Of a stretch of 34,308 nt of DNA, positions 2,052 through 34,308 are shown one piece after another. The number at the start of each line of letters is the position of its first letter. Within the stretch, counting starts at the first letter, position 1. The notes under the pieces were generated by a model. It made no database searches. It was not told the DNA's origin and was given only the letters and a program-made list of their open reading frames with translations. A program made the translations under genes and the position numbers. The DNA is from a virus, in the IMG/VR virus record IMGVR_UViG_3300035180_002049, positions 1-34,308 of that record; one strand, given 5' to 3'.

Positions 2052-4348
2052 GTGAAATTGCATATTTAGGCATAAGCACCTTCGTCGATAACTCGAACCT
2101 TGACGCAGGTTTTGGTGAAGCTGCGCAAAAGGCCGAGTCGTTTGATAAGGGCCTGTCCTCTCAGTCGATGCAAGGTCCGTCGATTTCCCCGGGAAAGCAT
2201 GACGGCGTCAGCTCGATGGTTCCTCAGATGGGCCAGATCGGGCTTTCGCTCAAGTCTGCTTTCACGGGTGCGATGGCTCCTCTGGTTGCGTTTGGCTCTC
2301 GATTCACAACGATGTTCGACGAGGTTGGCGGCACAATTACAAGGCTTGCCACTCGGCTTGACACTATGGTTCGTGCCGATCGAATCGAGGCCGATCTCAA
2401 GCGTGAAGCAACGGCTTTTAAGGTGGTTGGCGTCGTCGGTGCGCTCGCGGCGGTCAAGGTTGGCTTGGCGTTCTCGAACCCTGCCATTTATCTCGGTGCC
2501 ACTGTGCTCGGTGGTGCGTTCATGGCGGTGTTTCCTAAAGTCGCGGATTACGCTAATCGAGCGGCTGGCAAGATATCGACATTCTTTCTCATGTCCGGTT
2601 CGGTCATGAAAAAGACCCTGACTCAGCTTGAACATCTCAAGTTTCCAAATCCATTTCGACTCATCGGTTCTCAGGCCAAGCAAGCCACTACTGCAATCAA
2701 CGGCGTCAAGAATGCAGCGGTCGGTGGCACAAAGTCGCTCGGCAATCAAGTCTTGACCACGTTGGGCATTTTCAGCGCTCCGGCTGCAATCGTTGGTTTC
2801 TTCGGGGCGGGGATTAAGGGTGCCTCTGACCTTCGCGAAACGATGTCGAAAGTCGACACGGTTTTCAATGATTCGTCTGATCTCGTCAAAGCCAATGCCG
2901 ACAAGATGGCGGCAGCGTATGGGTTGCCTAAGAAGTCGATCCTTGATGCGTCGGCGGCGATTGGTTTGATCGGCAAAGGCGCTGGTCAAAGTGATAAGGC
3001 AGCGGCACAACTCGGAACGAATATGTCGAACCTTGCGGCCGACGCTGCATCGTTTTACAACGTTCCACTCGATGAAGCGCTGGGCAAAATCCGTTCCGGA
3101 CTGGTCGGTCAATCCGAGCCTCTGCTTGCCTTTGGCATCCAAATGAATGAGGCCAAGGTTGAGGCCGAAGCCATGCGGCTTGGGTTCGGCAAGGTTGGTA
3201 AGACTCTCAGCGACGAAGCAAAGACGGCAGCTCGTGCGAGTTTAATCACGAAGGGTCTCGCGGACGCGAGCGGCGACTTGGCGCGGACCTCTGGATCGAC
3301 GGCCAACCAATTCAAGAAACTTACGGGCGGCGTGGGAAACCTCGCAACCACGGTTGGCTCGTCAATGCTTCCGGCTGTCGATGTCGTTCTCGGTGGGTTT
3401 AACGCGATGGTATCGGGCATCGGTACGTTTGCCGAGCGAAACAAGGCTTCGTTTGAGGCAGTCGGCGAGTACGTCAAAAGTGCGTTTGCCAACTTCGGCG
3501 AGGGTGTCAGCAATGTTAAAGCCTGGTTAGGCACACTTCCCGAAGTGTTCACGTCTGTGTTTGGTGATAAGTCACAGATGATTAGCGACCTTGGCGCGAG
3601 CATCATGTCCGTTGCCGATGGTATCGGTATGGTCTGGCGCAACCTTCCTGCCTTTGCGGAAATCGCACTTATCAAGATTCGTGAGAAGTTCCTCAACCTC
3701 GGTGAGATGATTCACTGGACGATCGACAACGCTGGCGCTTTGGGATCTTATTTTGCCAACAATTTCTCCAAGCTTGTGACTGACGGGCTCACGTTCGTTG
3801 GGACCGGCTTCAAAAATCTAGCATTGAACATATGGAACTTAGGGAAAGCTGTTGTCGAGTTCATCAAAGATCCCACACAGGGTTTTCAGTTTAATTGGAA
3901 GGGTCTCACCGAAGGCTTTGTTGCGACGGCTGAACAGCTTCCTGAATTGATCAAGCCAGCGCTTACGAGCCTTCAGGCTGAGATCGACGCAAAGACTCTC
4001 GAAATTGGAACCAAAGAAGCCGAACGGGCCAAGGCAATTGCGGCCAAGGCCAAGCTCGATGCCTCGATCACTCCTGCCAAGCGTCCGATCGCGGGAGGTC
4101 CTGCGGAAGCGGCGAAAGAAGCGGGTCAACTCAAGCTCGCGGGAGCTAGTGAGCTGGGCTCGAAAGAGGCTTACAGCTCGATCGTCTCGGCGACTCGATC
4201 GACGCCTGGCGGGAATGCTCAGCAACGGGCGCAGGCCGACAACCTTGCTGAGCTGCGGAAGCAAACGGGCTTACTCGGTGGTTTGGCGGGTGCTATTGGT
4301 AATGCTGTCGCGCAAGCTGGTCAACCTAAAGTGGTGCATGCGTTATGA
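2048..4348 (+). CDS. Tape measure protein
   Basis: A 766-residue protein, the second longest frame in the window, directly after the chaperones. It has hydrophobic stretches at about 115-155 and 229-246. After about 250 comes the conserved tape-measure region (a G-A-S-D-L-R-E-T-M-S-K type segment, then repeated small-residue helices). A K/A/E-rich coiled segment lies near 640-690. Tape measure length sets tail length; this size predicts a tail of about 100 nm, which is inference. The start overlaps the upstream stop by four bases and the end overlaps the next start by four. One TTTCCCCGGGAAA site lies inside it at 2184-2196. Confidence 0.9.
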   Translation: MSEIAYLGISTFVDNSNLDAGFGEAAQKAESFDKGLSSQSMQGPSISPGKHDGVSSMVPQMGQIGLSLKSAFTGAMAPLVAFGSRFTTMFDEVGGTITRLATRLDTMVRADRIEADLKREATAFKVVGVVGALAAVKVGLAFSNPAIYLGATVLGGAFMAVFPKVADYANRAAGKISTFFLMSGSVMKKTLTQLEHLKFPNPFRLIGSQAKQATTAINGVKNAAVGGTKSLGNQVLTTLGIFSAPAAIVGFFGAGIKGASDLRETMSKVDTVFNDSSDLVKANADKMAAAYGLPKKSILDASAAIGLIGKGAGQSDKAAAQLGTNMSNLAADAASFYNVPLDEALGKIRSGLVGQSEPLLAFGIQMNEAKVEAEAMRLGFGKVGKTLSDEAKTAARASLITKGLADASGDLARTSGSTANQFKKLTGGVGNLATTVGSSMLPAVDVVLGGFNAMVSGIGTFAERNKASFEAVGEYVKSAFANFGEGVSNVKAWLGTLPEVFTSVFGDKSQMISDLGASIMSVADGIGMVWRNLPAFAEIALIKIREKFLNLGEMIHWTIDNAGALGSYFANNFSKLVTDGLTFVGTGFKNLALNIWNLGKAVVEFIKDPTQGFQFNWKGLTEGFVATAEQLPELIKPALTSLQAEIDAKTLEIGTKEAERAKAIAAKAKLDASITPAKRPIAGGPAEAAKEAGQLKLAGASELGSKEAYSSIVSATRSTPGGNAQQRAQADNLAELRKQTGLLGGLAGAIGNAVAQAGQPKVVHAL
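2184..2196 (+). repeat. Dispersed near-palindrome TTTCCCCGGGAAA, site 1
   Basis: Exact 13-mer inside the tape measure gene, encoding the S-P-G-K stretch. Same sequence as 10104-10116 and 24551-24563; related sites lie at 7875, 21668 and 30853. Confidence 0.8.
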
Positions 4349-18465: not shown

Positions 18466-19092
18466 ATGGCGGTACCTTCTTCGATTGCGGCTCGACGGAG
18501 TCGGGCGGTTGAGTCGTTTCAAACGGCGGCGGAATGTATTGGGGAGATTGTGCCGGGGATGGGGTTGTTTGCGGTTACGCGTGGGCAATTTTCGATGATT
18601 GATGCGGTGTTGGCCTGTCTGGATCAAGCCGGGCCCAGCCATGTTTCGCTGTGGACTTGGACAGTCGCGGAGTATGAAATCGAGTGTCTTGAACGGTTGC
18701 GGATTGATGGGCGGTTGCTGTCTGGTGTGCTTGTAATCGATCACGGGGCACGGAATAAAAACGCGGGGCTTATCGCGCAGTGGAAGAGCAGTTTCGGGCC
18801 TGAATCTGTGCGTTATGTTGTCAATCACTCGAAGATTGCGACGGTTCAAAGTGATCGGTTCAAGCTGCTTTTGCGTGGCTCGATGAACCTCAATTTCAAT
18901 CCACGGTTCGAACAATTCGATTTGACTGAAGGCGGGCTCGACTTTGATTTGGTGAAGTCGATCGAGGCCGAGCTGCCTGTGCTTGGAGACAAGTGCAAAG
19001 GGGAAGATGTGTACGCGGCCAGCAAGGTTGCCAACGCGTTCTCACCTCAGCAATTGAGCATGTTCAAAGATATCAAGGTCTGGAATAAATGA
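18466..19092 (+). CDS. HKD (phospholipase D-like) nuclease-type protein
   Basis: A 208-residue protein with AGGAG upstream of ATG 18466. The signature is H121-x-K123 in N-H-S-K-I-A-T-V, followed by D130 and the R-G-S-M-N-L-N segment at 137-143, as in the PLD superfamily. Only one HKD motif is present, so activity would need a dimer, as in Nuc-type nucleases. It is coupled to the next gene (ATGA), which resembles a terminase small subunit fragment. DNA cleavage or processing is plausible; the target is unknown. Confidence 0.7.
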   Translation: MAVPSSIAARRSRAVESFQTAAECIGEIVPGMGLFAVTRGQFSMIDAVLACLDQAGPSHVSLWTWTVAEYEIECLERLRIDGRLLSGVLVIDHGARNKNAGLIAQWKSSFGPESVRYVVNHSKIATVQSDRFKLLLRGSMNLNFNPRFEQFDLTEGGLDFDLVKSIEAELPVLGDKCKGEDVYAASKVANAFSPQQLSMFKDIKVWNK

Positions 19093-19349
19093 TTGACATC
19101 TTGGCTGAACTCGCGATCGACAATCCCAAGGTGCCAGCGGTTACTTTACAGATGTATGCCGATGCGTTGCGGTCATATGTCGAAGCGTCGAAGAACATCG
19201 AAGCCAACGGGTCTGTCTGTTCGCATCCTCGGACGGGGGCTCCGATCGATAATCCGTATTTGCGGGTGAGAGATCAGCAAGGGGCAGTGCTCAGAAAGAT
19301 GCGGGCGATTAAGGGAGATCGCGTTTTGAAAAGGCTCCTTGAGGATTGA
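19089..19349 (+). CDS. Truncated P27-family terminase small subunit-like protein
   Basis: An 86-residue protein. The centre reads A-N-G-S-V, then H-P-R-T-G-A-P-I-D-N-P-Y-L-R-V-R, the conserved helix-turn region of P27-type small terminases. It lacks the usual N-terminal DNA-binding half (family members are normally 120-170 residues). A complete P27-type gene sits at 24101, so this is a second, shorter member linked to an HKD protein rather than to a large terminase. Its role may be DNA recognition for the HKD partner, which is inference. Confidence 0.65.
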   Translation: MIDILAELAIDNPKVPAVTLQMYADALRSYVEASKNIEANGSVCSHPRTGAPIDNPYLRVRDQQGAVLRKMRAIKGDRVLKRLLED

Positions 19350-21682: not shown

Positions 21683-22132
21683 TCAGCGCTGGGGCGTGGC
21701 GATCGCGGCTTGATAGCTGGCGGGTGCGAGGATCGTCTGTGTGGTGGCCAAGGTCATCTTGCGAAGCCTGGGCTCTCCGAGGCGAGTGAGGCGTTCTCCG
21801 GCTGCTGCAAGGCCTCTGCGGATCGCGTTGGGCGGGACGATCACTTGAACCGTCTGCGGTGCAAGGGTGGTCGCGTAGGCGGCCTGGGGTTGCTGTGCCT
21901 GAGCTTGGGCGTAGGCCTGGGGGCTGGCCTGGGCTCTTTGCTCGGCGAGGGCTCGCTGGATCGCTCTGTCTACGATCGCGTTGACTTGGTCTTCAGTAAG
22001 TCCGGGCGCGCTGGCGGGCGTGCTCGGGGCAAACGGGTTGACCATCGGGGCGGCTGGGACGCGGTCATCGGCCTGGGCTTTGGCTCCGACTAATGACGCG
22101 AATGATAAGCCAATCAAGATGATTTTGAGCAT
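21683..22132 (-). CDS. Secreted/periplasmic small protein
   Basis: The protein has 149 residues from ATG 22132, which has AAGGAG eight bases upstream. A signal peptide covers about 1-20 (L-K-I-I-L-I-G-L-S-F-A-S-L, then A-K-A-Q-A). The mature part has a helical Ala/Gln-rich region with Q-A-Q-A repeats. Exported phage proteins of this type may act at the cell envelope. It diverges from the metalloprotease gene. Family unrecognised. Confidence 0.6.
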   Translation of the reverse strand: MLKIILIGLSFASLVGAKAQADDRVPAAPMVNPFAPSTPASAPGLTEDQVNAIVDRAIQRALAEQRAQASPQAYAQAQAQQPQAAYATTLAPQTVQVIVPPNAIRRGLAAAGERLTRLGEPRLRKMTLATTQTILAPASYQAAIATPQR

Positions 22133-22213: not shown

Positions 22214-23005
22214 ATGAAAAGTAAGCAATTGTTAGTTTGCGGTTGCAAGGCAAGTGAGGTAGCTCCGGGAGTTGTCGCAAGGTGGCCTGTCGGTTTGACT
22301 GAAATCACATACTTTGAAGATATGGTTTTTGATGGGTTAACACGTGAGCAAGTGGCTACGTGTTATGATTTGGCGGTTGGTCAATGGGCGGCGTTAATTG
22401 GTCTGACTTTCCGACGTGTTGAAGATCCTGGTCTCGCTCGAATTGTGGCACGTAATGGGGAGATCGACGGGGCCAACGGCGTGTTGGCCCTGTCGGATCT
22501 TCCTTACGGGGCTTCGACCTGGTCGGTGATGAATCAGATTTTCGACCCGGCTGAACCTTGGTCGCAAGAAGACATTCACATGCTACACGGTTGCATGTGT
22601 CATGAAATCGGGCATGCTCTTGGATTGGAGCATATACCGAATTCAGGGGCATTGATGGACCCGTATATCGTGCCTGGTCGTTGGCGTCCTCAGGTTCCGG
22701 ATATTGCGGCGATTCAAGCGATTTACGGGGAACCTGTGGCGAAGAATTTGGGGCTGTCGGATGCTGAGCTTGTCGCGATCGGAGAGGAGTTTGCTCCTGT
22801 CGTTTGCTCGGCTTTTGCTGAGTCTTTGCGGGATTTGGCCAGCTCGATTGAGTCGTCCTTAGACGATTCCAATGTTCTCGATTGGTCTGTGGTGGAACGT
22901 CGGATCTTTGCGTTTTGGAACGAACGTCTTATCGATTTGCTCGAGGATATTTCGGTTGCCGATTATGTTCGGGTTTTGCGTGGGATAGCGACGGGGCTTT
23001 CGTGA
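22214..23005 (+). CDS. Matrixin-like zinc metalloprotease
   Basis: A 263-residue protein with the zinc motif H130-E131-x-G-H134-x-L-G-L-x-H140 and a Met-turn A-L-M-D-P at about 146-150, the signature of metzincins of the matrixin (M10A) family. There is no signal peptide. It heads a plus-strand cassette of small membrane proteins just before the HNH and terminase genes. Planctomycete walls contain protein and little peptidoglycan, so an envelope-cutting protease could serve lysis or entry, which is inference. The last 90 residues are helical and may be a separate domain. Confidence 0.75.
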   Translation: MKSKQLLVCGCKASEVAPGVVARWPVGLTEITYFEDMVFDGLTREQVATCYDLAVGQWAALIGLTFRRVEDPGLARIVARNGEIDGANGVLALSDLPYGASTWSVMNQIFDPAEPWSQEDIHMLHGCMCHEIGHALGLEHIPNSGALMDPYIVPGRWRPQVPDIAAIQAIYGEPVAKNLGLSDAELVAIGEEFAPVVCSAFAESLRDLASSIESSLDDSNVLDWSVVERRIFAFWNERLIDLLEDISVADYVRVLRGIATGLS

Positions 23006-23061
23006 TTACTCTTTTCATCGTGGCGATGGTTTCTCTGTATTTGTTGTTGGAGGATGCATGA
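23002..23061 (+). CDS. 19-residue membrane micropeptide
   Basis: GTG at 23002 overlaps the protease stop (GTGA) and the stop overlaps the next ATG (ATGA), so it is bounded exactly by its neighbours. The peptide is VITLFIVAMVSLYLLLEDA, one hydrophobic helix. Such tight packing on both sides argues for translation. A holin-like or anti-holin helper role is possible. Confidence 0.5.
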   Translation: MITLFIVAMVSLYLLLEDA

Positions 23062-23339
23062 AAGTCTTTCGTGGTTTGATTGCTCGTGTGGTTGGTTTTT
23101 TCGGGGCTGTGCAGGGCTCGGTTCGCGGTGTAATCAACGGTGAAGAGTTGGTTCGTGCAATCATTTCAGCTGTGTCGGCTGGGTTCTCGGTTCCGTCGGT
23201 TCTGGCTCTCGTTCCGGTGCTGATTAAGGATGTTCCCCTCGTCGTTCCTAGCCCGGCTGTGTCGGGGTTGCTGGTGGCGATTATTACGCTGATCGCTGAT
23301 CTCTACAGGCGTAAAGCGGCGGGCTCGGTTGCAACGTGA
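23058..23339 (+). CDS. Holin-like membrane protein
   Basis: A 93-residue protein with GGAGG before ATG 23058. Hydrophobic segments lie at about 8-24, 43-62 and 66-82, followed by a short basic tail (D-L-Y-R-R-K), which fits a small phage holin. It follows the matrixin gene and precedes further small membrane proteins. The assignment is by topology and position; no family signature is certain. Confidence 0.55.
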   Translation: MKVFRGLIARVVGFFGAVQGSVRGVINGEELVRAIISAVSAGFSVPSVLALVPVLIKDVPLVVPSPAVSGLLVAIITLIADLYRRKAAGSVAT

Positions 23340-23449
23340 TCTCGAAGTCTTGGCGGGTTGGGTTTCTCCATCTCGCGTTCACGGTTTGCTATGTCGGTCT
23401 CATACTCTGGATCATTCAAATCATTACGACTCGGCAACCTTTCAACTGA
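23336..23449 (+). CDS. 37-residue single-pass membrane peptide
   Basis: GTG at 23336 overlaps the upstream TGA by three bases (GTGA). One hydrophobic segment spans about 9-30 (V-C-Y-V-G-L-I-L-W-I-I-Q-I-I), between basic and polar ends. The frame fills the gap to the next gene almost exactly. Possible holin partner or spanin-like element. Confidence 0.5.
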   Translation: MISKSWRVGFLHLAFTVCYVGLILWIIQIITTRQPFN

Positions 23450-23455
23450 TGTTCA

Positions 23456-23686
23456 ATGGCTGTAATTGACGTGGACTTTGAGCGCGGATCTATGCGTGAT
23501 GCCTTTTTCGTATGGGGGCTTGGGCTCGGCGCTTATCTCACGTCGATCGGTCATTGGATACAGGGGCTCGTGTCGATCGGCCTTGGGATCTCGACCATCG
23601 TTGGTTGTGCTATCGCGTGCGTTAGGTTGCGGTGGGATTGGGTGGATCGGGCCAAGCGGCAGGCGGGAAGCAAACGTGCCTCGTAA
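23456..23686 (+). CDS. Two-helix small membrane protein
   Basis: A 76-residue protein with hydrophobic segments at about 17-34 and 38-56 and a basic C-terminus. It starts six bases after the preceding stop and overlaps the HNH gene by 11 bases. Holin-like in topology. The four small membrane genes together form one cassette. Confidence 0.55.
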   Translation: MAVIDVDFERGSMRDAFFVWGLGLGAYLTSIGHWIQGLVSIGLGISTIVGCAIACVRLRWDWVDRAKRQAGSKRAS

Positions 23687-23975
23687 GATCGCGACGTTTC
23701 GGCCCCATACCTTTGGCGGCACTACTGCCAAGCAAGACTATGAACGTGCCGAAGCTCGCCGCGCTGACAAGCGGTTCTATTCTGGGGCTCGGTGGATCAA
23801 GCTGCGTGACTTGTTTCGGCGTCGTCATCCTGTGTGTGCGACCGTTGGTTGTAATGCTCCAACGGCGCATGTCCACCACGTCATACCGCGTGACGTCAGG
23901 CCGGACCTTGCTTACGAGTGGGATAACCTTCAAGCCCTCTGTATCCCATGCCACAACGCCCAGGATCAACGATAG
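23676..23975 (+). CDS. HNH endonuclease
   Basis: The protein has 99 residues from GTG 23676, preceded by GGCGGGAAG. A zinc Cys pair C-A-T-V-G-C is at about 50-55, then H-V-H-H-V-I-P, a W-D-N-L-Q-A-L-C strand and C-I-P-C-H-N, the beta-beta-alpha-metal HNH fold. HNH proteins next to terminase genes aid DNA packaging in HK97-like phages. The conserved H-H and later H-N are present. Confidence 0.85.
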   Translation: MPRKIATFRPHTFGGTTAKQDYERAEARRADKRFYSGARWIKLRDLFRRRHPVCATVGCNAPTAHVHHVIPRDVRPDLAYEWDNLQALCIPCHNAQDQR

Positions 23976-24100: not shown

Positions 24101-24541
24101 ATGGCAAGACGCGGACCTAAACCGAAGCTCAAGATTGCAGAAAGCGACGCGCGGACCGTCGGCAGGTCGACACCTCTGCGCGTTGTTGTGCCTCCTTTTG
24201 AGCTTGGTCAAATCTCTCGCGCGGAGTGGGATCGATACGCGCCGATTTTGGTGCGTGCGAAACGTCTTGATGAGATCAACTCGCCTGCATTTGCTTGTTA
24301 TTGCGAGGCTTTCGAGTTCTATACTCGGGCTCGTCAAGATATGGGGCTCGACGTCTCTCTGATTACCGATTCAGGCGGGACTAAGGCCAATCCCTCAGCG
24401 GCTCTTGCCCTCAAATCACTTGATACTATGCTCAAGTTCCTACGTGAGTTTGGGCTTACCCCTGCCACTTTGCGGACGTTGGGCGAATCATTGAAGGAAG
24501 TCAAAGTCGACCGGCTGACTGAATTCATCGCGAATGGATGA
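24101..24541 (+). CDS. terS: Terminase small subunit, P27 family
   Basis: The protein has 146 residues from ATG 24101, the M-A-R-R-G-P-K-P-K opening typical of the P27 family. A GTG at 24083 would add six residues. Helices with W-D-R-Y-A-P-I-L and A-F-A-C-Y-C-E-A-F lead to the conserved G-G-T-K-A-N-P-S-A-A-L-A-L stretch and F-G-L-T-P-A-T-L near the end. It recognises the packaging site and loads the large subunit. The next gene overlaps its stop (ATGA). Confidence 0.9.
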   Translation: MARRGPKPKLKIAESDARTVGRSTPLRVVVPPFELGQISRAEWDRYAPILVRAKRLDEINSPAFACYCEAFEFYTRARQDMGLDVSLITDSGGTKANPSAALALKSLDTMLKFLREFGLTPATLRTLGESLKEVKVDRLTEFIANG

Positions 24542-26271
24542 CAAAAAAGGTTTCCCCGGGAAAGTCGAAGGGCTCGTCAAGCTCATCGAAGCGATCGTCC
24601 CGAAAATCGAGCGACTCGGCGAAGCCCTCGAAGGCCTCCGTCAAGTCGAAAGCTCCACGGGTTCGCAAGGTTGCGGCCAAGTGGATTCGGGGAAGTATCG
24701 ACCTGGTTGCGATCAAGCAAGGTTGCTGGTTCGACGAATCGGCGGGCAAACGTGCTTGTGCGTTCATCGAAACCTTTTGCTGTCAGTCGCACGGGAAAGC
24801 CAAGGGCCAACCGATCAAGCTCGTTGCCTGGCAACGCGACTTCATCATGCGTCTGTTTGGCTGGAAAACGAAGGACGGCCTCAGGCGGTACAGACGTGCA
24901 TATGTCGAAATTGCCAAGAAGAACGGGAAGTCCACCTTGATTAGCGCTCTCGTCCTTTTCCTTCTGCTCGCCGATGGTGAAGGCTCGCCAGAGATCTACC
25001 TCAACGCCTGCGATAAAGACCAAGCCGGCATCGTGTTTCGCGAAGCTGCGCGCATGGTCAAGGCCTCTCAGGATCTCAAGTCACGTCTCAAAATCATCAA
25101 CTCGAAGGCGGATATGCGGATCCTCGACGAAGAGGGGGAAGGCGTCATTGTCGCCAACTCCTCAGTTGCGGGATCGAAGGACGGGCTCAACCCTTCCGGG
25201 TGCATTTTTGATGAGCTGCATCGCCAGCAAGACCGCGCCCTCTGGTCGGTTTTCGAGCATGCTGACGCTGCGCGTGATCAGCCGCTCACGATCTCGATCA
25301 CCACTGCTGGTGAGGCCCCCGACGGCGTCTGGTACGAGCAACGCGAATATTCTGAAGGTATCAACAACGGTGAGATCGATGATATCACTCACCTCGGGAT
25401 TATCTTTCGCGCTTTGCCTGAGGATGATCACGGCGACCCGAAGACGTGGCTTAAGGCTAATCCGTCGCTTGGCGTCACTCTGAAATATGAAGAGCTTGCT
25501 CGCAAGTGGAAAGAGGCGTCAAGAGATCCGGTCAAGCGGGCCAACTTTTTGCGTCTCAGGCTCAATATCATCCAACGTGAAGAGCTGCGTTTCTTCAACG
25601 TCGGCCAATGGGAAGCGTGCGGCGCGCCTGTGCAAGTCGAGCCTGGCTCGGCTTGCTGGTGTGGCCTCGACTTGTCGAGCACTAACGACTTAACTGCTTT
25701 GGTCGGGATCTTCAAAAATGATCTCGACGGCTTCGATGTGCTGGCCTGGTTCTGGTTGCCTGAAGACAACATCTTGGACCTTGAGCAGAAGCACAAACGA
25801 CCCTATCGAACGTGGGCCGATATGGGCCTCATCACTCTCACCGATGGTCCCTCGGTTGATTATCGATTTATCCGTCAACAGATTAACAAGATTGCAAAGC
25901 TTTACAGCCTGCAAAAGTTTCTTGCCGACCCCAAGTTCGCCTCTCACCTTCTCACGGAATTGCAGGAAGAAGACGGGCTCGAAGTCCACGCGATTCAACA
26001 GAACGTCATGGTTCTCGGCCCTGCGACGTTTGAGTTCAAACGCCTCGTTGAATCGAAGGCTCTCAGGCACGGTAGCAACCCGATTCTCGACTGGATGGCT
26101 GGCAACCTGGTTCCAGTGTACGACACGAACAATAACGTTCGTTTCACGAAGAAAAAACAGAAAAACAAGATCGACGGCATAGCAGCACTCATAAACGCCT
26201 TGGCTGGAACCATGGATCGACAATCCTCCAACGGCTCGGCCTATGACGGTGGCGGGATTTTGTTCTTATGA
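24538..26271 (+). CDS. terL: Terminase large subunit
   Basis: A 577-residue HK97-type TerL. The first 45 residues are a Ser/Lys-rich tail. The Walker A-like A-K-K-N-G-K-S-T is at 126-133, and Walker B I-F-D-E at 223-226 carries the catalytic Glu. The RNaseH-like nuclease has D378 in G-L-D-L-S-S and D546 in K-I-D-G. It pumps DNA into the prohead and cuts it at the end. Start overlaps the small subunit stop; end overlaps the portal start. Confidence 0.95.
   Translation: MTKKVSPGKSKGSSSSSKRSSRKSSDSAKPSKASVKSKAPRVRKVAAKWIRGSIDLVAIKQGCWFDESAGKRACAFIETFCCQSHGKAKGQPIKLVAWQRDFIMRLFGWKTKDGLRRYRRAYVEIAKKNGKSTLISALVLFLLLADGEGSPEIYLNACDKDQAGIVFREAARMVKASQDLKSRLKIINSKADMRILDEEGEGVIVANSSVAGSKDGLNPSGCIFDELHRQQDRALWSVFEHADAARDQPLTISITTAGEAPDGVWYEQREYSEGINNGEIDDITHLGIIFRALPEDDHGDPKTWLKANPSLGVTLKYEELARKWKEASRDPVKRANFLRLRLNIIQREELRFFNVGQWEACGAPVQVEPGSACWCGLDLSSTNDLTALVGIFKNDLDGFDVLAWFWLPEDNILDLEQKHKRPYRTWADMGLITLTDGPSVDYRFIRQQINKIAKLYSLQKFLADPKFASHLLTELQEEDGLEVHAIQQNVMVLGPATFEFKRLVESKALRHGSNPILDWMAGNLVPVYDTNNNVRFTKKKQKNKIDGIAALINALAGTMDRQSSNGSAYDGGGILFL
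24551..24563 (+). repeat. Dispersed near-palindrome TTTCCCCGGGAAA, site 5
   Basis: Exact 13-mer at codons 5-9 of the large terminase gene, encoding S-P-G-K, as at site 1 in the tape measure gene. Confidence 0.8.
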
Positions 26272-27515
26272 GTTCCTTCCTGTCTTCGGTTCGGCGTGGC
26301 TTTGCTGCGTTTCGTGAGTCTCGATCGATGGCTCCTCAGGGCACTGGGGCGTTTGTTGGTACCGGGCTCTCCGGGATCGCGGTGACTCCCGACAATGCTC
26401 TCACGCTTCTGCCTGCATTCGCTGCAATCAATATTCTCTCGACTGACACCGCGACCCCTCCGTTGCTGCTCTATCGCACTGACGAAAAGGGCGCGAGGAA
26501 GATCATTACGGGAACGGCTCTCAGTAAGATCACGGCGCGCACGCCGAACGGCGTCACCACTCCTATGCGGTTTCGTCAAGCCCTCATGGGTCACACCTTG
26601 GGCTGGGGCAACGGTTATGCCGAGATTCTTCGCGATTCTTGGACGGGTGAACCTTATGGCCTCTCCCTGCTTTCGCCTCGTCCTTGGGACACGTGGCCTG
26701 AGAGGGTGAATGGTCGACTGCTCTATAAAATCCAGCGTGGTACAAGGCAACTCTTGCCTGAGAATGTGATTCATATCGCGGGCCTCAGCTGGGACGGCCT
26801 GGTCGGTTACTCTCCGGTTGCGCTGGCTCGTGAAGCTATCGGCCTGGCTCTGGCGGCGGAGCGCTTTGGGGCCTCGTTCTACGGCAACGGCTCCCATGCT
26901 TCGGGCTGGCTCAAGTCGCCTAAGAAGCTCTCTCCGGAAGCAAGGCGCAACCTCCGCGAATCGTTCGAAGAGCAGCATCGCGGCACGGGCAACGCAAACC
27001 GTATCGGCGTTCTTGAGGATGGTCTCGAATTCGAGAAAAGCTCGATCGACCCTGAAGACGCGCAATTCTTGCTCACTCGCAAGTTTCAAGTCATCGAACT
27101 ATGTCGGCTCTATCGTGTTCCACCTCATAAGGTGATGGACTATGAGCATGCTCACCTGGCAAATCTTGAGCAATCCAATACCGACTATTTGATGACTTCG
27201 CTCTTCCCGTGGTGCCTGCAAATCGAACAGGAATTCGACCTCAAGCTCTTGACGACTCAGGAACGCGACAACGGATTTGCGTACGCTCATAACTTGCGAG
27301 CGTTCATGCGTGCTGATAGTGCGGCGCGTGCGGCCTACTGGGATTTGATGGCTCGCAACGGTGTTGTCTCACCCAATCAAATCGCGGCCGAAGAGGGCTT
27401 TGATCCGATTGAGGGCGGCGACGTTCACTTCTGCCCACTCAACATGACTGTACTTGCAAATATTGGCAAACCTTCAAACGACACACAAAAGCGATCGACC
27501 AATGAAGCCGCCTAG
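26268..27515 (+). CDS. Portal protein, HK97 family
   Basis: A 415-residue protein. The N-terminal region (P-A-F-A-A-I-N-I-L-S-T-D), the L-L-Y-R strand, G-N-G-Y-A-E-I near 109 and the clip/crown segment with V-I-H-I-A-G-L-S-W-D-G match HK97-type portals. It forms the dodecameric ring at the unique vertex through which DNA passes. Coupled to TerL by ATGA, and its 3' end overlaps the protease start by 14 bases. Confidence 0.95.
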   Translation: MSSFLSSVRRGFAAFRESRSMAPQGTGAFVGTGLSGIAVTPDNALTLLPAFAAINILSTDTATPPLLLYRTDEKGARKIITGTALSKITARTPNGVTTPMRFRQALMGHTLGWGNGYAEILRDSWTGEPYGLSLLSPRPWDTWPERVNGRLLYKIQRGTRQLLPENVIHIAGLSWDGLVGYSPVALAREAIGLALAAERFGASFYGNGSHASGWLKSPKKLSPEARRNLRESFEEQHRGTGNANRIGVLEDGLEFEKSSIDPEDAQFLLTRKFQVIELCRLYRVPPHKVMDYEHAHLANLEQSNTDYLMTSLFPWCLQIEQEFDLKLLTTQERDNGFAYAHNLRAFMRADSAARAAYWDLMARNGVVSPNQIAAEEGFDPIEGGDVHFCPLNMTVLANIGKPSNDTQKRSTNEAA

Positions 27516-28110
27516 CTCTCCAAAACTTACGTTTGAACGTCGTTTCCTTGCGATCTCGACCGAAGAACGCGCTGCCGTTCTGAAACCTGAGACGCGAACG
27601 GTTTGTGGCTATGCTGCCTTGTTCAACTCGCTTTCTGAAGACTTGGGGGGATTCCGAGAGATCATTCTTCCTGGTGCCTTCACGAAATCGATTGAAGATG
27701 GTGACATTCGTTGTCTTGTCGACCACGACTCTTCGAAGATTCTCGGTCGTAAAAAGTCTGGCACTCTCAGACTCAAGCAAGACGAGCGCGGCTTGTGGTA
27801 CGAAGCTGACTTGCCTGATACGTCGTACGCGAATGACCTGGTCGTCAGCCTCACGCGCAAGGATGTTGACGGCTCTTCCTTTGGTTTCCGTGCCGTGACT
27901 GAGCGTTGGGAAATGCGTGACGGTATGCCTGTCCGAATCCTCTCTGATCTCCATTGCTTTGACGTCTCGCCGGTGACTTATCCGGCTTATCTCGACACGT
28001 CTTCGGCTCTGCGTTCGCTTGAAGAATTTCGTTCGTCGCTACCATCGCCAAACGCTGATCACCAGAACAGGTTCAAGCGCGCGGCTTTGGCCTTCTTTTC
28101 CCTTGGTTGA
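27502..28110 (+). CDS. Prohead protease, HK97 (U35) type
   Basis: The protein has 202 residues from ATG 27502. An upstream in-frame start at 27454 lies deeper in the portal gene and is less likely. The motifs G-Y-A-A-L-F-N, I-L-P-G-A-F, the catalytic His in V-D-H-D, the catalytic Ser in G-S-S-F-G-F and S-P-V-T-Y-P-A-Y are all in family order. It cleaves the capsid delta domain and scaffold during maturation. Confidence 0.92.
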   Translation: MKPPSSPKLTFERRFLAISTEERAAVLKPETRTVCGYAALFNSLSEDLGGFREIILPGAFTKSIEDGDIRCLVDHDSSKILGRKKSGTLRLKQDERGLWYEADLPDTSYANDLVVSLTRKDVDGSSFGFRAVTERWEMRDGMPVRILSDLHCFDVSPVTYPAYLDTSSALRSLEEFRSSLPSPNADHQNRFKRAALAFFSLG

Positions 28111-33554: not shown

Positions 33555-34308
33555 GTGAATCGCGAACTCAAAATATCCACAGCGGCAACGGTCATCCTTG
33601 GTCCGTTTTTGTCGATTGCCGATGGCGTTACCCCTGTCTCGACAGGCTTGGCGGCTCCTGGAACCCCGGCGGCTTACTACTACAAAAATGGCACGAAGAC
33701 AGCGGTCGACCTTTCGACCCTTTCGTGGACTTCAACGGGAAACGGGCAATTCTCGATCGTTCTCAGTTCGGGCATTACCGATACAGCGGGTTCGCTCGAA
33801 TTTTACATAATCGACGCGGCCAATTATGTTCCGTTGTTTGTCTGTTTCTCTGTGCTCTCAGCCGTTGCCTATGATGCAAAATACGGGTCGGGCAAAGTGC
33901 CTGCCTCTCTCGCCTCGGGCGATGTCACTGGCAATCTTCCTGCGATCGTCAACGCCTATGCCTCGGGTCAAGATCCTGCCACACTCGTGCTCACCACGCC
34001 TGCGAACAAGCTCGTGACGAACGTGTCGGGCTTTGTGACCTATTCGAACGCAGCTCCGCCGACAGCGGAGGCGATCGCCACGGCTGTTTTGACCGACGTG
34101 ACTTCAGGTGATCTCGCTGCGGCCGGATCCCTTGGTCACCTGGTGACGACCGCACCGAGCTGGTACACAGCTCCGTCGACACCGCCGACAGCGGAGGCGA
34201 TCGCCACGGCTGTTTTGACCGACGTGACTTCAGGTGATCTCGCTGCGGCCGGATCCCTTGGTCACCTGGTGACGACCGCACCGAGCTGGTACACAGCTCC
34301 GTCGACAC
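33555..34308 (+). CDS. 42-residue-repeat tail protein, N-terminal part
   Basis: GTG start three bases after the preceding stop. 251 codons reach the window end in an open frame; the rest is at 1-394, giving about 374 residues with the present copy number. The N-terminal 165 residues form a beta-rich domain of unknown family. Two identical 126-bp repeats follow. The copy number in the true genome may be higher because such repeats collapse in assembly. Position before the tail terminator favours a tail-associated structural role. Confidence 0.7.
   Translation, partial: MNRELKISTAATVILGPFLSIADGVTPVSTGLAAPGTPAAYYYKNGTKTAVDLSTLSWTSTGNGQFSIVLSSGITDTAGSLEFYIIDAANYVPLFVCFSVLSAVAYDAKYGSGKVPASLASGDVTGNLPAIVNAYASGQDPATLVLTTPANKLVTNVSGFVTYSNAAPPTAEAIATAVLTDVTSGDLAAAGSLGHLVTTAPSWYTAPSTPPTAEAIATAVLTDVTSGDLAAAGSLGHLVTTAPSWYTAPST
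34056..34307 (+). repeat. 126-bp tandem repeat, two identical copies
   Basis: Copies at 34056-34181 and 34182-34307 are identical base for base and encode the 42-residue unit starting P-P-T-A-E-A-I-A. A third, slightly diverged copy is at 23-148. Confidence 0.95.
34286..34308 (+). repeat. 23-bp terminal direct repeat with bases 1-23
   Basis: The last 23 bases equal the first 23. It reads as an assembly overlap of a circular or circularly permuted molecule, or as a repeat boundary, since it lies inside the 126-bp repeat. Confidence 0.85.

Follow-up and report, generated by a model that had tools for sequence, protein, structure and literature searches.

A matrixin-type metallopeptidase next to small membrane proteins: a candidate lysis cassette in a phage that likely infects planctomycetes

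The window analyzed here, i.e., the whole 34,308-base IMG/VR virus record IMGVR_UViG_3300035180_002049, represents a temperate tailed phage, as indicated by Pfam matches to a portal protein, an S78 prohead protease, an HK97-type capsid protein, an integrase, and ParB. Directly ahead of the packaging genes lies a gene for a peptidase of family M10 (the matrixins), followed on the same strand by four tiny ORFs with hydrophobic products, so that the gene order reads M10, four transmembrane (TM) ORFs, HNH, TerS, TerL, and portal (Table 1). Because the record begins and stops (1–394 and 33555–34308) within the same 126-bp tandem repeat, which belongs to one gene with a matching frame at both ends, the phage genome is probably near-complete, with little missing. 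The gene carrying this repeat probably encodes a tail protein. The cellular sequences closest to its TerL (~50% identity) belong to prophages in MAGs of Planctomycetales and Singulisphaera, which makes a planctomycete the likely host. An earlier reading of the locus, made from the sequence only, had started from a protein-rich, peptidoglycan-poor host wall; this premise is weak and outdated, as planctomycetes possess peptidoglycan sacculi that are sensitive to lysozyme (PMC4432640).

Table 1. Features of the candidate cassette and its flanks
Feature	Position	Strand	Basis or remark
Ala/Gln/Pro-rich secreted protein, divergent, beside the M10 start	21683..22132	−	Weak, low-complexity similarity to a protein of L008
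M10 matrixin metalloprotease, 263 aa	22214..23005	+	Pfam, PDB match, AlphaFold model, 16-sequence phage M10 alignment
19-aa hydrophobic peptide, GTG start	23002..23061	+	4-nt overlap with M10 stop; least certain of the four
93-aa protein, ATG start, two hydrophobic segments, holin-like	23058..23339	+	Clear Shine-Dalgarno GGAGG
37-aa single-TM protein, GTG start	23336..23449	+	4-nt overlap with preceding stop
76-aa TM protein, ATG start, basic C-terminal tail	23456..23686	+	Hydropathy, shuffles, codon-usage caller
HNH endonuclease	23676..23975	+	PF01844 7e-9; separates lysis slot from terminase genes as in HK97
Terminase small subunit (TerS)	24101..24541	+	PF05119 4e-15
Terminase large subunit (TerL)	24538..26271	+	PF20441/PF03354

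The M10 protein matched PF00413 with an E-value of 1.2e-14 (54.9 bits against a gathering cut-off of 24), MMP-1 collagenase in the PDB with an E-value of 6e-10 (phmmer), and, through its AlphaFold model, viral matrixins at 1.5e-11 (Foldseek). The catalytic domain of this model (residues 21–170) is confident, with a pLDDT of about 85–97. Both sequence motifs of family M10 are present, namely, an intact zinc site HEIGHALGLEH (HExxHxxGxxH; ligands H130, H134, and H140, catalytic E131) and the Met-turn ALMDP (M148), and the matrixin-like zinc protease proposed earlier is thereby confirmed, with Glu131 in place. Hydropathy analysis predicted no signal peptide, no TM segment, and no hydrophobic N-terminus, as expected of the cytoplasmic, signal-less enzyme of a holin–endolysin cassette. 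Alignment and Pfam searches found no PG_binding_1 prodomain and only an incomplete version of the PRCGxPD switch that mark MMP zymogens; the vestige of the switch is an aligned Cys9-Gly10, while its PD is gone. The C-terminus forms a helical domain (about residues 183–262) that matched a lipoprotein of record L085 at about 1e-4 in a 12-sequence set, with other pairs being weaker. It is suggestive only, but the helical domain of companion proteins (see below) may have become fused to the M10 C-terminus. As a single-sequence query, the M10 protein found no match in the viral collection under strict patterns, nor did tblastn detect one in 50,697 phage records. A role in capsid maturation was set aside because the S78 prohead protease is already present at 27454–28110.

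Further analysis of the four downstream ORFs revealed that each has at least one strongly hydrophobic segment and that the junctions from M10 onward consist of three 4-nt overlaps and then a 6-nt gap, after which the HNH gene overlaps by 11 nt. Among 2,000 dinucleotide shuffles, a chain of four hydrophobic ORFs arose in none and a chain of three in five, with TM segments called by hydropathy and signal peptides counted among them. A purpose-written codon-usage gene caller recovered the 93-, 37-, and 76-aa genes, while the 19-aa ORF lies below its size limit. The tightly overlapping run of tiny membrane proteins claimed earlier is thus borne out by the junctions and the shuffles. A solitary protease, with some or all of the tiny ORFs being non-coding, appears scarcely credible against the shuffling result and the codon-usage calls, even though two of the ORFs (19 and 37 aa) are very short and start with GTG, and the 93- and 76-aa proteins have no homologues in Pfam or PHROGs and match no holin family. 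A PHROGs search of the whole cassette likewise returned nothing. The divergent protein on the other side of the M10 start has a possible homologue inside the equivalent module of record L008, the similarity being weak and of low complexity.

Phage endolysins are usually seen as lysozymes, amidases, transglycosylases, or members of a few peptidoglycan endopeptidase families. A Pfam search of all plausible ORFs of the window identified no muralytic family and, hence, no canonical endolysin, in agreement with the sequence-only reading, which had recognized no lysozyme, amidase, or transglycosylase and had named a true endolysin in the window as a finding that would refute it. In targeted searches of 19 records (this virus, L008, and 17 M10-bearing records), Phage_lysozyme, Amidase_2, and SLT were absent and all matches to M23 and M15_4 fell below the cut-off, those to M23 lying in frames of 656–1492 aa; most of the environmental phage records may be incomplete. 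Pfam would miss a wholly novel muralytic family, and many genes of the virus have no Pfam match, which leaves room for the protease being an accessory lysis factor that loosens the envelope or cleaves a lipoprotein while an unrecognized muralytic enzyme, encoded elsewhere, does the main cutting. A precedent comes from a Listeria prophage, in which a metzincin and a TIMP-like lipoprotein (Mtz-Tim), encoded near the holin and lysin genes, sensitize cells to phage lysis (PMC8235301), and secreted or lipoprotein-like companions also adjoin M10 in L119, L121, L136, and L138. However, Mtz is secreted by itself and assists a true lysin (PMC8235301), whereas the phage M10s examined are signal-less and searches of the virus and the tested records detected no muralytic family; we therefore consider an accessory role unlikely.

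Upstream of its packaging genes, HK97 carries, in this order, holin, lysin, Rz, gp73, and HNH (gp74); judged by this arrangement, the M10 site of the virus corresponds to the HK97 lysis site. PF00413 was found in none of the first eight TerL relatives. In the TerL relatives L008, L084, and L086 (the latter two being Planctomycetales/Singulisphaera prophages), the equivalent slot holds a papain-like cysteine protease, small membrane proteins, and HNH-TerS-TerL; in L085, it holds a papain-like frame and then a membrane protein. A prophage in another genome of the same order (L166) combines papain, two TM ORFs, and TerS with an unrelated TerL and a different portal. The papain-like protease is not homologous to M10. 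Its assignment is based on motif conservation and weak matches to cathepsin K; a Foldseek search with its model, whose mean pLDDT is low (60.7), returned xylellain (4e-6) and cathepsins, which is supporting evidence for a papain fold rather than proof. Homologues of this protease occur between lysin A and the holin in Gordonia phage Lilbeanie (gp40) and overlapping an amidase gene in MW202816, and the lysis families among 94 neighbors of papain-like genes in environmental phages comprised LLH holin (twice), GH25, Amidase_2, M15, CHAP, and Tlde1. On this comparison, the slot behaves as a lysis slot with interchangeable unrelated enzymes. As for the same gene order in other planctomycete phages, a check proposed earlier, the slot and its small membrane genes do recur, but the enzyme there is papain-like and not M10.

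At 18466–19349, the virus encodes a possible phospholipase-D-like protein (HSK...N...E motifs, recognized by eye) and then a second TerS-like protein (PF05119, 7.8e-6); a similar pair adjoins HNH in L084 (6765–7606, minus strand).

A search combining an M10 pattern with alignment yielded 15 further distinct phage M10s, which are 22–39% identical to the virus protein. Across the 16-sequence alignment, the zinc site is kept in all, as is the cysteine of the switch, and the Met-turn shows only minor variants. Several relatives display the MMP zymogen layout, i.e., an N-terminal PG_binding_1 domain (L136, 1.3e-8; L119, 1.1e-6) with an RCGxPD switch, while L139 is about as short as the virus M10 yet retains CGVPD. 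No signal peptide or TM segment was predicted in the relatives checked. A small TM gene lies at most two genes away on the same strand at 15 of the 16 M10 loci, compared with a background of 43% (nominal P of 3e-5); six of these loci belong to one lineage (L127), and counting it once gives 10 of 11 lineages and a weaker statistic. In L121, the order companion-M10-TM-TerL-portal follows that of the virus with another type of terminase. Comparable sets of protease and membrane proteins recur in viruses that are not related to one another. In L138/G025, a Phage_r1t_holin gene (PF16945, 2.6e-16) lies 8 bp downstream of M10, and a search of 38 proteins of this record detected no muralytic family. 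We regard this r1t holin as the most direct support for M10 occupying the position of an endolysin.

Secreted or lipoprotein-like companions lie near the proteases in L121 (7357–7929), L119 (4424–5251), L138 (11696–12382), L136 (10892–11332), and L085 (5411–5920), and weakly share a helical domain. Similar pairs, in which a secreted helical protein precedes a signal-less M10, occur in planctomycete chromosomes (L167, 5796–7879; L168, 6416–8360), with no obvious phage genes seen nearby, so enzymes of this type are not confined to phages. Indeed, planctomycete genomes hold many M10 genes, and M10 searches across Planctomycetota returned host chromosomal M10s rather than prophages. Such genes and pairs would fit a cargo or effector protease of host type, acquired horizontally for surface remodeling, competition, or nutrient release and unrelated to the adjacent membrane genes, as would the trypsin-like protease (PF13365, 3.5e-10) and the CAP-like secreted protein that, at 978–1982 and 2655–3284, occupy the slot upstream of HNH-TerS-TerL in L017. 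We judge cargo to be quite improbable, given that the phage M10s examined lack a signal peptide, that M10 is tightly coupled translationally to the TM ORFs and adjoins a holin in L138, and that its position before the packaging genes is fixed in L121 and the virus. M10 domains also occur in tape-measure proteins: that of Arthrobacter phage Shambre1 matches phage M10, and a tape-measure-like protein of L123 (20–2347) contains an M23-like stretch and the M10 zinc motif HEIGHTLGLPH. A virion-associated protease acting at entry could be envisaged on this ground. The M10 product of the virus is, however, small, stand-alone, and unfused, and its gene lies apart from the tail genes and is coupled to membrane ORFs, which makes such a role highly improbable.

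Taken together, we consider 22214–23686 a probable phage lysis cassette of the holin–endolysin type in which the enzyme is an MMP-type metallopeptidase, at times replaced by a papain-type enzyme. The lysis role claimed earlier is supported by context, namely, the HK97-like slot, the holin beside an M10 relative, and the papain swap; we infer this role, the identity of the holin among the TM proteins, and the substrate alike. The matrixin, since it has no signal peptide, would build up in the cytoplasm, as canonical endolysins do. The holin would be supplied by at least one of the small membrane proteins, with the 93-aa protein as the likeliest candidate, and the remaining ones might be a holin regulator or spanin-like parts. 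Opening of the inner membrane by the holin would then give the metallopeptidase access to the envelope, where it would cut load-bearing peptide bonds, either in the stem or cross-link peptides of peptidoglycan or in proteins linking the envelope layers, and lysis of the cell would follow. The PG-binding domain of the relatives and the M10 motif that accompanies an M23-like stretch in the L123 tape-measure-like protein (compare Shambre1) favor a target close to the wall, although PG_binding_1 need not mean wall binding because the MMP prodomain is also PG_binding_1. The proposal that a protease replaces the muralytic endolysin is compatible with all scans; as for its substrate, peptidoglycan peptides could themselves be cut, considering that relatives carry PG_binding_1. 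More tentatively, there may be a class of tailed phages, at least some of them on planctomycetes, that lyse their hosts by a holin-released enzyme of MMP type, or of papain type in sister phages, which destroys load-bearing peptides or proteins of the envelope, without a glycosidase, an amidase, or a classical peptidoglycan endopeptidase.

Among open-licence papers, we found no phage M10 lysin, the nearest case being the Listeria accessory pair, and a survey of lytic proteins from prokaryotic viruses, published in 2025, mentions neither M10 nor matrixins nor planctomycetes in its main text (PMC12596118). If the lysis reading is true, collagenase-type or papain-type proteases in a recurrent lysis slot would represent new enzyme classes for lysis, offer a clue to what binds the unusual planctomycete envelope together, and provide lytic proteins open to direct testing in a phylum for which phage tools are scarce.

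Compared with holin–endolysin(-spanin) cassettes of the HK97/lambda type, the locus has the same place directly upstream of the HNH and terminase genes and the same pairing of a signal-less enzyme with small membrane proteins, but the enzyme is an M10 matrixin instead of a lysozyme, transglycosylase, or amidase, and none of the membrane proteins matches a holin family. With MMPs (M10A) and bacterial karilysin, the virus protein shares the catalytic fold, zinc motif, and Met-turn. Its M10 relatives resemble the zymogens of vertebrate and plant MMPs in keeping PG_binding_1 and the RCGxPD cysteine switch, whereas in the virus protein the prodomain is gone, the switch is reduced to Cys9-Gly10 without its PD, and the C-terminal helical domain is added. 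The papain-like peptidase of phage lysis cassettes (Lilbeanie gp40) fills the equivalent slot in close TerL relatives and sits among lysis genes, while belonging to an enzyme class that is non-homologous to the virus M10. Searching the Listeria phage A118/A500 stretches, we found no HExxHxxG protein, and the comparison with Mtz-Tim covers arrangement and secretion: the virus M10 differs in being signal-less, in having no same-strand lipoprotein partner beside it, and in the lack of a recognizable lysin. Nonetheless, Mtz-Tim likewise involves a metzincin that a phage encodes in connection with its lysis genes and that acts on the envelope and has a lipoprotein partner, and we view this pair as the nearest functional precedent for the proposed cassette.
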